Assembly (NCBI GenBank): GCA_003242085.1
Contig: QBML01000002.1
Location: 1 to 64,000, forward strand
Direction: 5' to 3'
Length of the DNA: 64,000 nucleotides
DNA from: Pseudanabaena frigida
GTDB lineage: Bacteria > Cyanobacteriota > Cyanobacteriia > Pseudanabaenales > Pseudanabaenaceae
The position numbers and the translations under genes were made by a program. Shown here piece by piece: positions 57,203-62,574 of the stretch (position 1 is its first letter; each line of letters starts with the position of its first letter). The notes under the pieces were generated by a model that ran no database searches, was not told the DNA's origin, and saw nothing but the letters and a program-made list of their open reading frames with translations.

Positions 57203-57607
57203 TTAAGACTTAGGCTTAATTTCAAACTCTGACTTGGAACGGTAGAAGCAAACATCAAATTCAAGAAAAAAATTGGTTTGACCAAGAATTAATGGGGCAT
57301 TTGGGCTATTTGTCCAAGCGAACACTAATTTGACTGGTTCAAATTCTCCAATTTGAGCGATTAAAGAAAACGGTATTGCTTGCTGATTACCAAGATTACC
57401 TGTTAATCGAACGATAGCCTTGCGCTCATCCCATACACTTCCTAATTGCAAACCAATCTCATAGGGCAAGACGTTAATCGTAGCGCCACTATCAACTAAG
57501 CCAACTGTATCAACTACGCGATCGCCTTGCTGTAATATCAGAGGAATTCTTGGAAGGCTATCAAACTCGTTTTGACTGGGGCTAGTGGTGGAATACTGGA
57601 AGCGCAT
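57203..57607 (-). CDS. retropepsin-like aspartyl protease family protein
   Basis: This 134-residue protein has the single-lobe aspartyl protease signature VGLVDSGATINVLPYEIG, with the hydrophobic-Asp-Ser-Gly-Ala active-site motif, and ends with LVFAWTNSPNAPLILGQTNF (the flap-like and LILG segments). One lobe means it must dimerise to form an active site. The family is frequent in cyanobacteria but has no known target. It lies 3 bases after the stop of a 71-codon gene, so the two are cotranscribed and probably work together. Confidence 0.75.
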   Translation of the reverse strand: MRFQYSTTSPSQNEFDSLPRIPLILQQGDRVVDTVGLVDSGATINVLPYEIGLQLGSVWDERKAIVRLTGNLGNQQAIPFSLIAQIGEFEPVKLVFAWTNSPNAPLILGQTNFFLEFDVCFYRSKSEFEIKPKS

Positions 57608-57878: not shown

Positions 57879-57948
57879 GCGATCGCCCAATCAATCAAAC
57901 TACTAAACAGCGATCACCTATTCATCAAAAATCAAAACAACGCGATCT
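57879..57948. repeat. HIP1-containing dispersed repeat, full copy 1
   Basis: The unit runs GCGATCGCCC.ATCA.TCAAA, then about 10 variable bases, CAGCGATC.CCTATTCATC and AAAAATCAAAA. It aligns with 58640-58710 over about 70 bases. Confidence 0.7.
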
Positions 57949-57949
57949 C

Positions 57950-58295
57950 TCAAGTTTCTTCTGATTCTGGATCTTCACCAATTGTTTGCTGGTATGCGTG
58001 GCGAATGTGAAGAATGCGAACTGTTGAAATATCTTATCCTTCCAAAATAGTGAAAATTACTCGGTATGAGTTACGTCCCCGACCATAAAGTAGTTGACGG
58101 AGTTCTTGGCTAAAATGGTCGTTCTCTCTTGCCAATGGACAACGCTTAGACATTTGAGACAAAGAGGCGATCGCTTCTAGCAACCCTGAATACCATTGAC
58201 TTGCTTTTAATAGGAGAAGAGATTTGAGATAGTCGTAAAAATGCTTTATCTGCTTCAGCTTCAGCAATACTTGAGATTTCGATGCGGTAGTTCAT
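57950..58295 (-). pseudogene. parE: ParE/RelE-family toxin, broken by a frameshift and a nonsense codon
   Basis: The ATG at 58295 overlaps the antitoxin stop (ATGA). The frame reads MNYRIEISSIAEAEADKAFL and RLSQISSPI, then shifts at a run of four A: removing one A restores KASQWYSGLLEAIASLSQ. This continues to SYRVIFTILEG and a TAA, after which the same frame carries on with DISTVRILHIRHAYQQTIGE and ends at 57950-57952. These are the conserved blocks of a ParE/RelE toxin, so at least two lesions have inactivated it. The total length fits a 115-residue ancestor plus one inserted base. Confidence 0.82.
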
Positions 58296-58546
58296 GAATT
58301 GGCTGGCAGATTGTACTTATGGCGCTTTTCTTCAGCAAAATCTTGAAAAGACCGATATCGTCCTGACTCAAAATCATCTAGTCCTGTTTGAATGCCTTTA
58401 ATAGCTTCTTCTGAGTCTTTTTCTTCCCAATCTAAGATACTCGCTAACAATTCAGATGCAACAAAATTAATATCTTGACCTTGTTTTGCAGCTCTGCTAT
58501 GGAGCAATGCTTCTAATTTGGGATTAAGGGTAACAACTATTGACAT
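58292..58546 (-). CDS. antitoxin of the broken ParE/RelE locus
   Basis: This 84-residue protein (MSIVVTLNPKLEALLHSRAA...) has the short strand-helix start of a ribbon-helix-helix DNA-binding antitoxin, then ASELLASILDWEEKD and an acidic linker, and ends in a toxin-binding type helix (RSFQDFAEEKRHKYNL). It is intact although its toxin partner is doubly mutated. A 9-bp perfect inverted repeat encloses the -10 element upstream, suggesting that it still represses its own promoter. Confidence 0.75.
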   Translation of the reverse strand: MSIVVTLNPKLEALLHSRAAKQGQDINFVASELLASILDWEEKDSEEAIKGIQTGLDDFESGRYRSFQDFAEEKRHKYNLPANS

Positions 58547-58569
58547 AGAATGCCTCTTCTAGCGCAAAG

Positions 58570-58596
58570 TTTCTAAAGTAATTATAGCTTTAGAAA
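58570..58596 (-). promoter_or_regulatory. operator palindrome enclosing the antitoxin -10 element
   Basis: TTTCTAAAG (58570-58578) and CTTTAGAAA (58588-58596) form a perfect 9-bp inverted repeat. The 9 bases between them contain TATAAT on the minus strand (58581-58586), 35 bases upstream of the antitoxin ATG. No good -35 is visible, as expected for a weak autoregulated promoter. Confidence 0.6.
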
Positions 58597-58605
58597 ATTA
58601 ACCTC

Positions 58606-58710
58606 AGCGATCGCCTATTCATCAAAAATTAAAGATAAGGCGATCGCCCCATCACTCAAATCATCAACAGCGATCGCCTATTCATCAAAAATAAAAATAA
58701 TGCGATCACC
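58606..58710. repeat. HIP1-containing dispersed repeat, one and a half copies
   Basis: Two units of CAGCGATCGCCTATTCATC plus AAAAAT stand at 58606 and 58669, joined by the GCGATCGCCC-type first half at 58640. Such repeats flank both ends of the toxin-antitoxin remnant. Confidence 0.7.
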
Positions 58711-58746
58711 TTATTTTTAGGCTTAATTGGGTTTCAGTCCTAATGT

Positions 58747-60159
58747 TTATTGAACTTTTGTCCTAAATGTACGGTATAACTTTTGAACATGTCTCATAGG
58801 ATCATTTCCTTGGCATTTCATATCCAACATATTGCAAAGATCTTCATCTGAAAGTGTCAGGATGATTTTTCGAGGTTGTGAATCATTAAATATAGAAAAA
58901 GATTTTCTCTGTTGAGCTTCTTCTAGAGCCCTTCTCGTTACTATAAAACCTAATCGACCCAGCCGATCGCCTAGATAAGTTGCCACTTGATTTAGATAGA
59001 AGTTATTAATATCATCTGTATTTTTTACTTCAAACATAATGAAGATAGATGAGTGTTCAGTACGAAGATATGCCCAAAATGATTGATCTGAGTCATTAGT
59101 GAAAATAATATCACGACGTTCAGTTCCATCTACTGTTGCCACCTCCAACTCACCATCAATTAATTCTGGATTAAATAAAAAATTAAGTATTTCAAGAACG
59201 ACACGTTGATATTTTCCTGCATCTTCACGTCCAGTTTTTACTTGATTCAGTTTTTCCTTTAGTTCTTCAGCCACTATAGAAATCTTGCTTGCATCAATGT
59301 AATTTAAACTCGGCTGAGCTTGTTCATACGCCTTTTCTTTAGCTAAAACATATCGATCTATTCGCTCAATTTCTGTTCGATTTAATGATACTACTTTTTC
59401 CTTTTCTTCTTTTTTAATTTGAGCTGGGGCAATATTTTTTGTAGCAAGACGACCTTTTACACGTTTGGCTCTCAAGTAAGTCGAAAATTCCATTTTGAAA
59501 AAATCATCATAATTAATCCAAGGAAGTACTCTAACAATTCGCCGAGGAACTAAAAGAATAGGAGAATTATCAATTGGACTTATTGGCAACTCAAAGTAAC
59601 CGTCATACCAAGTTAACGTATCAAAGTCAAAGATATGACTCAATGGGACTCCAGAAATGAGTGGAATATTCCATAGTAGACATTGTTTCTGAGTGTATTC
59701 AATTAAATACTGTTTAAGAAGGTTAGCGGCAATATCACTAATACGGTCTGCCCCAATACCAACTGACACCAACTGCATTTCTTCAATGTGTTTAACCCCA
59801 CGCTCTTGCAAAGCAGGGGAGTCAATAAGAGTCTCAATAATTAATTGAGAAAGAAAATTTCCTACACCTGATCCTTGCTTACTCTTTTTTGAATAGCCTA
59901 GACCAATCTCTGCAACTTCAGGAAAATCAAAAAGTTGTTGTGCTTCACTTAGTTTTCTCTCTCTAACAAGCTCAATACCTTTATTAAATACTTTCAAAAT
60001 TGAAGTGTGGAGATTTGCGAGAATATTATCTCGACTTTTAAATAGCAAAAAAGGATCAATCCCAATAGGTAAGTCTATACCTAAACGGGGAATAACAAAA
60101 TCCACCTCAAATTGAGATGTGTCAGTCAAAAGTTGAGTATTAGGAGCTATATTAATCAT
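58747..60159 (-). CDS. unrecognised protein with C-terminal PD-(D/E)XK nuclease domain
   Basis: This 470-residue protein is the second gene of a two-gene module. The last third carries a restriction-endonuclease-like core: RRDIIFTND (Asp), then IFIMFEVKN (the ExK pair), then NQVATYLGDRLGRLGFIVTR. The N-terminal two thirds are unfamiliar; they include LGIDLPIGIDPFLLFKS and a conserved-looking DRISDIAANLLKQYLIEYTQ. A charged, coiled middle (IKKEEKEKVVSLNRTEIERIDRY) links the parts. I take the ATG at 60159, which overlaps the upstream stop by 8 bases; a TTG at 60183 is the alternative. No membrane helix or ATPase motif is seen. Nuclease activity is predicted from the motifs, and a defence role is inference only. 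Confidence 0.7.
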   Translation of the reverse strand: MINIAPNTQLLTDTSQFEVDFVIPRLGIDLPIGIDPFLLFKSRDNILANLHTSILKVFNKGIELVRERKLSEAQQLFDFPEVAEIGLGYSKKSKQGSGVGNFLSQLIIETLIDSPALQERGVKHIEEMQLVSVGIGADRISDIAANLLKQYLIEYTQKQCLLWNIPLISGVPLSHIFDFDTLTWYDGYFELPISPIDNSPILLVPRRIVRVLPWINYDDFFKMEFSTYLRAKRVKGRLATKNIAPAQIKKEEKEKVVSLNRTEIERIDRYVLAKEKAYEQAQPSLNYIDASKISIVAEELKEKLNQVKTGREDAGKYQRVVLEILNFLFNPELIDGELEVATVDGTERRDIIFTNDSDQSFWAYLRTEHSSIFIMFEVKNTDDINNFYLNQVATYLGDRLGRLGFIVTRRALEEAQQRKSFSIFNDSQPRKIILTLSDEDLCNMLDMKCQGNDPMRHVQKLYRTFRTKVQ

Positions 60160-60805
60160 TGGAGATTTGAAAGTAATCAGCAATATTAATTTTATCTAGC
60201 TTGACAAAGTTAAATTCGCTATCATCAGTTATGAAAGCTGATCGATCATTATACCAGTGACTAGAAAGATTACCATTATGATCATCTAAATCAGCTTTGG
60301 TAACATTTAACCTACCCTCCAGATAAATTTGTATTGCTATTTCAATTCCCTTTGCGTCATCTAGCTTGAATTTTACTCGCTCGATCAAGGGATAAAGTTC
60401 AGCACGAAAACGATCTAGACCTTGACGAACTTGACGCATTACGACCACTGCATCTCGGTGCTGTGTATTATCCCCAGCCGATATAAATTCTTTAAGTCTC
60501 TGTACATAAGTGTCTTGCTTTATTAGTTCTTTTGTCTCTCTAATAACCTCATTCATTTGAGTTAGAACAAGATCTGTTACTGGTTCTGCTGGAGCTTTTT
60601 TAGATAATTTATCTATTTCTTCATAGAGACCAAGTGAAACGCTGTCAAGTAACTTAAGCTGATTTTTTTGATACCCAGACGCATTACGCAAAAGCGGCTC
60701 AAGCGTAGCAATGATGTTACTAATTTGCTCAAGTTGCTCTGTTCGTTTTTGTCTGAGTTGTGTAGATTCATTAGAAAGACTAGGGTTATTTTTTCGTGTT
60801 GCCAA
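60152..60805 (-). CDS. helical partner protein of the nuclease gene
   Basis: I do not recognise this 217-residue protein. It begins with TTG (60805), preceded at a suitable distance by AAAGGTGAT. Residues 15-160 look like long amphipathic helices, probably coiled coil (LEQISNIIATLEPLLRNASG, LTQMNEVIRETKELIKQDTY, VRQGLDRFRAELYPLIERVK). The C-terminal 55 residues look more strand-rich (HNGNLSSHWYNDRSAF, FNFVKLDKINIADYF). It ends inside the start of the nuclease gene, so the two are translationally coupled and their products very likely interact. Its chemistry, if any, is unknown. Confidence 0.62.
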   Translation of the reverse strand: MATRKNNPSLSNESTQLRQKRTEQLEQISNIIATLEPLLRNASGYQKNQLKLLDSVSLGLYEEIDKLSKKAPAEPVTDLVLTQMNEVIRETKELIKQDTYVQRLKEFISAGDNTQHRDAVVVMRQVRQGLDRFRAELYPLIERVKFKLDDAKGIEIAIQIYLEGRLNVTKADLDDHNGNLSSHWYNDRSAFITDDSEFNFVKLDKINIADYFQISND

Positions 60806-60833: not shown

Positions 60834-60883
60834 CTTATACAGTTATTACTTTCTTGTTACCAGTTTAACCGATGTTACAAGAA
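60834..60883 (-). promoter_or_regulatory. possible promoter and operator of the two-gene nuclease module
   Basis: Read on the minus strand, TATAAG (60839-60834) could be the -10, with TGGTAA 17 bases upstream as a poor -35. An inverted repeat TTCTTGTTAC (60851-60860) / GTTACAAGAA (60874-60883), 9 of 10 matched, overlaps that -35. This is the layout of a repressible promoter; no regulator gene is adjacent. Confidence 0.35.
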
Positions 60884-61000
60884 GTATCAGACCCCATAAA
60901 TACTTACCCAAGAAATCATAATGTTGTATTAGCATTCACTGTTAGATTATGTAGGCAAGCTATAAACTTAAGCAGAGATTTATCTAGAAAAATTTAGACA

Positions 61001-61034
61001 ATAAAAAAGAGGGCATATGCCCTCTTTTTTATTA
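61001..61034 (-). terminator. terminator of the ATP synthase operon segment
   Basis: AATAAAAAAGAGGGCAT (61001-61017) pairs perfectly with 61018-61034, with a six-T run on the exit side. It lies 14 bases beyond the atpA stop. Confidence 0.88.
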
Positions 61035-61047
61035 GCTTATTTGTGGA

Positions 61048-62574
<1,527 letters not shown>

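Follow-up and report, generated by a model that had tools for sequence, protein, structure and literature searches.

What do two overlapping genes beside atpA in Pseudanabaena frigida encode, and what might they do for the cell that carries them? The pair lies in the window analysed here, the first 64,000 nt of contig QBML01000002.1 (assembly GCA_003242085.1), and the initial annotation had described it as an unrecognised module of a helical protein and a PD-(D/E)XK nuclease. We found that both genes match the PADLOC candidate system PDC-M36: gene A aligns with PDC-M36A (E 6.7e-82) over residues 14-468 and profile positions 16-454 of 457, and gene B aligns with PDC-M36B (E 3e-9) over profile positions 14-103 of 117, only 91 of its 217 residues, a match that hhalign supports. 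Because both genes are homologous to this family, the pair is a layout variant of PDC-M36 and, as judged from homology, a rearranged form of a computationally listed candidate rather than an unrecognised system. PDC systems are candidates proposed by association ("guilt by embedding"), most of them without validation (PMC12988326), and two other PDCs assayed in the native host gave no defence (PMC12409345). PDC-M36 was named in no paper found in our literature search, and the main text of the DefensePredictor paper holds nothing relevant on FokI or two-gene systems.

Table 1. Coordinates of the gene pair and surrounding features in the window
Feature	Position	Strand	Description
Gene B	60152..60805	-	217 aa, TTG start, AAAGGTGA upstream; predicted all-helical partner, long variant of PDC-M36B
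Gene A	58747..60159	-	470 aa, ATG at 60159; N-module and predicted FokI/BspD6I-like nuclease domain; PDC-M36A
A N-module, residues 1-230	59470..60159	-	undescribed domain; nine invariant residues
A C-domain, residues 288-470	58750..59298	-	predicted PD-(D/E)XK nuclease; D350, E377, K379, Q391
Inverted repeat	60851..60883		weak; possible operator lying 46 nt upstream of B
Bidirectional terminator-like hairpin after atpA	60999..61034		right boundary of acquired segment
Two copies of dispersed HIP1-rich repeat	58600..58720		left boundary; many congener matches
ParD/ParE-type pair	58034-58546	-	toxin frame (about 58034-58300) frameshifted
134-aa protein	57203-57607	-	aspartyl-protease-like DSGAT motif; PADLOC PDC-M52B, E 2.2e-44

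Both reading frames were recovered as first annotated, with the start of A overlapping the end of B by eight bases (ATGATTAA). The same 8-base overlap is present in the closest complete relatives, L005 and L007, from Leptolyngbyaceae-type cyanobacteria, and a relative in a provirus (L026) has a gap of one base between B and A. Ratios of dN/dS against three relatives were low (0.09-0.16 for A and 0.19-0.24 for B) and support coding, though the values are indicative only since synonymous sites are near saturation.

Searches of Pfam, NCBIfam, and PDB sequences with A gave no credible match, and a viral structure library gave no useful one. The D...ExK...Q nuclease core that had been proposed at the C-terminus of A was borne out as D350, E377-V-K379, and Q391: among 14-18 diverse relatives of the C-domain the aspartate, the lysine, and the asparagine that follows it (N380) are invariant and the glutamate nearly so, and the columns of D350, E377, K379, and N380 are conserved even where the N-termini of the relatives differ. 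The model of A is moderate overall (pLDDT 70.5), and in VIA-align its C-domain superposed on residues 376-580 of Nt.BspD6I (Z 11.8, 156 aligned, 3.2 A), on the small subunit of R.BspD6I (Z 10.8), and on residues 396-576 of FokI (Z 10.7), scores that clearly exceed most others, which lie near 7-8. RPB5, the top Foldseek match for A (E 3e-3), was rejected, as it covers the same C-terminal stretch at a Z of 7-8, below that of BspD6I. As modelled, the C-domain is a PD-(D/E)XK nuclease of FokI/BspD6I-like fold with its catalytic residues intact. The initial annotation had raised the prospect that the pair would match a described restriction system: among known restriction systems a resemblance was found for the C-domain only, to type IIS cleavage domains.

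The partner had been called a long-helix protein, and the AlphaFold2 prediction agrees, with B all-helical (pLDDT 86) and its helices at residues 8-70 and 116-162. A conserved core at about residues 56-138 carries the motifs GLYxEIDKLSKKxP and D118...Q125 and aligns in hhalign with the two short families B1 and B2 found in other PDC-M36 loci (probability 94% and 90%, E 1e-7 and 1.6e-6, respectively), which in turn align with each other at a probability of 99%. Searches of Pfam, NCBIfam, and PDB sequences with B returned nothing credible. Fold matches (Bpa, flagellin, prefoldin, and PspA among them, with Z up to 9.1) were given no weight because any helical bundle would score likewise.

The N-module of A is the least known part of the pair. 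It is marked by the motifs IDPFLLFKS, PEV.EIGLGYS...G.G, HIEE, and GIGxDRISD, and D35, P36, E81, G88, G96, D138, S141, D142, and P192 are invariant in 21 diverse members, across which we found no consistent Pfam match and no PDB sequence match. In other bacteria it is fused to a different C-terminus or to unassigned regions: proteins such as L083, L082, L021, and L092 share the N-module with A but end in a different ExK-like domain (GPVDFK...EFKLAKN), and no B was seen in the flanks read. Conversely, the A-type nuclease domain, with its conserved D, E/D, and K, occurs without N-module or B as a standalone protein beside a TIR-Mrr protein (L084), in a WD40 fusion (L085), and in an Mrr fusion (L090). 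Each module is thus also found without the other, and A unites the two in one protein. We tentatively suggest that the N-module may be an undescribed domain that senses infection or produces a signal, possibly as an enzyme (invariant D35, E81, D138, and D142), and that bacteria couple it to interchangeable nucleases and partners, with the window pair as one configuration, in which a dedicated helical subunit gates a FokI-type cutter.

Several further loci show these modules in other settings. The Mrr fusion is encoded in the source genome itself, where a second M36A-type nuclease domain (G000:C13:9313-9717, within L090 8770-9819) is fused to Mrr_cat, giving two nuclease domains in one chain. 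An M36A-type nuclease domain also follows an apparent response-regulator receiver domain, recognised by eye only, at L093 31-735. At two loci (L080 6188-6661 and L088 7381-7854) a helical-looking protein of about 158 aa precedes an N-module protein; it is unlike B and is a possible alternative partner.

Taken with the cleavage domain, the N-module could instead point to a restriction-type enzyme, in which it would recognise a modification or structure of invader DNA, A would cut in the manner of type IV or IIS enzymes, and B would be a structural subunit that pairs two cleavage domains rather than an inhibitor. FokI and the two-subunit nickase/restriction enzyme BspD6I, which the cleavage domain resembles, cut both strands only with the help of a second cleavage domain, and both the long helices of B and the lack of a methyltransferase gene in the unit would suit such an enzyme. 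Against this, no similarity of the N-module to any DNA-binding family was detected, and the module is acidic (pI 5.0); we regard this alternative as possible but doubtful.

The pair was absent from all 25 congeners searched, and in 11 compared base by base nothing of it was present. On the right, similarity to most of these 11 stops at the atpA terminator (60999-61001), and in two at 61049; on the left, one congener (G024) matches the window at 91% over 57909-58661 before similarity breaks off at the HIP1-rich repeat, whose matches end at 58714-58718. The pair has a GC content of 34.5-36%, against 42% for the window. The site beside atpA holds a methyltransferase and a restriction enzyme in four congeners (profile-typed in one) and a VapBC-like pair in two; because this cargo differs, the site is variable and repeatedly receives defence or toxin-antitoxin genes. 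The two-gene unit is recently acquired and mobile. The varying cargo downstream of atpA in congeners (L067-L077) marks a genus-level integration hotspot. A housekeeping role with ATP synthase was rejected because all the congeners examined keep atpA and lack the pair.

The pair's immediate neighbourhood in the window does not amount to a rich defence island. Its neighbours are atpA and toxin-antitoxin remnants, and no methyltransferase gene lies beside it, so the cognate methyltransferase of a type II restriction-modification system was not found here. The toxin-antitoxin debris noted initially is real: the ParE-type frame is frameshifted relative to an intact ParE-family copy in G024 (L072). 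Some 1.1 kb from the pair, the PDC-M52B-type gene is preceded by a 71-aa ORF with no match, together a second candidate unit. Relatives of the pair have defence-type neighbours, with HmaA (1,678 bits) downstream in L007, ShosA and ShosT upstream in the provirus locus L026, a type II restriction enzyme and methyltransferase upstream in L027, and a PaeR7I restriction-modification system beside an M36A fragment in L097.

The initial annotation allowed that homologues of the nuclease might mostly lack the partner, and we found the reverse: B adjoins A in 11 of the 12 loci whose A has both modules, a count that overstates the independent cases because one locus (L006, with a split B) is nearly identical to L007. 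The exception is the two-module A of L079, with no detectable B. Among 386 cyanobacterial genomes, 10 have a match to an A module and two have both modules (the source genome and G174); B occurs in exactly these two and is absent from the other eight, each of which has one A module only. The presence of B therefore tracks the joint presence of the N-module and the FokI-type domain, and this conserved pairing, together with the neighbours of the relatives, upholds the view of a genuine coupled unit of nuclease and partner. We also looked for B on plasmids, for two-module relatives among phage records, and for the provirus relative among E. coli genomes, each time with no hit.

A tree of A (ten sequences and one outlier) separated the B-A layout of the window, L005, L007, L026, and L008 from an A-B1-B2 layout in L009, L018, L019, L027, and L028, with support of 0.998-1.000; the tree is unrooted, and the direction of the layout change therefore cannot be read from it. 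A-B1-B2 is the commoner layout, and in the window clade, whose members come from cyanobacteria, an acidobacterium, and a provirus contig, B comes first, single and long. Two of the A-B1-B2 units (L018 and L019), carried by a cyanobacterial and a Methylobacterium plasmid, lie directly downstream of umuDC-type genes. Their occurrence in different phyla might indicate a nuclease that acts in DNA damage or repair and is tied to SOS mutagenesis, yet umuDC is frequent plasmid cargo, and no umuC was recognised by eye in the flanks of the window pair, L005, L007, L008, L026, L027, or L078; we consider this link very improbable.

Upstream of B we found the inverted repeat that had been said to overlap the likely -35. 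The repeat exists, with 10-nt arms at 60851-60860 and 60874-60883 and one mismatch, but it is weak; because 8% of Markov shuffles give one equally good and no sigma-70-like -35 or promoter was found there, the proposed overlap is unsupported. L005 has a repeat with 9-nt arms at a similar distance, and the core GTTAAACTG common to these two loci is suggestive of a shared operator. Such an operator-like repeat, weak as it is, would also fit an addiction or abortive unit of toxin-antitoxin type, in which A would be a self-toxic nuclease, B its antitoxin, and maintenance rather than antiviral defence the main benefit. Translation of B precedes that of A, with an 8-base overlap between the genes, and relatives were found on plasmids and in a provirus; against this, B1 and B2 come after A in the other clade and most neighbours belong to restriction and defence systems, and we judge a unit of this kind unlikely.

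We suggest, with a probability of roughly 0.55, that the pair is a mobile, rearranged PDC-M36 variant in which A acts as a nuclease against phages or other mobile genetic elements under the control of the dedicated helical partner B. This reading builds on what is established for the pair: the families of both genes, the nuclease fold of the A model, intact catalytic residues, near-strict pairing of A with B, mobility, and defence neighbourhoods. What we infer is that A and B bind, whether B inhibits or activates (the initial annotation had it sensing or restraining the nuclease), what triggers the unit, what it cuts, and that it protects the cell. In an uninfected cell, B would bind A and hold it inactive or correctly assembled. 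The N-module may receive an infection-related signal or bind some unusual feature of DNA or protein. On entry of a phage or other mobile element B would release or organise A, whose C-terminal domain would cut DNA and thereby destroy the invader or stop the cell. B may be an inhibitor, an activator, or an assembler of A, all three being compatible with its sequence. Since the unit has no methyltransferase, either A must be kept in check or the N-module must be selective if the DNA of uninfected cells is to escape cutting.

These results give concrete anatomy and testable roles to a listed defence candidate, and they add a second gene layout with partner dependence conserved across phyla. They also bring to light an unannotated domain found joined to various nucleases, and a FokI-type domain under a natural protein switch may be of interest to enzyme engineers.

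Compared with known systems, the pair resembles PDC-M36 along the whole of A, in the conserved core of B, and in the adjacency of the two genes. Canonical PDC-M36 loci place A before two short B paralogues of about 115-134 aa; the window locus does not have this layout, and its single 217-aa B precedes A and carries extra N- and C-terminal parts. With Nt.BspD6I, R.BspD6I, and FokI, A shares the predicted fold of its C-domain and the placement of that domain C-terminal to a different N-terminal domain. It differs from these enzymes in having no sequence-level match to them and no methyltransferase partner, and in its unassigned N-module and dedicated helical partner B.
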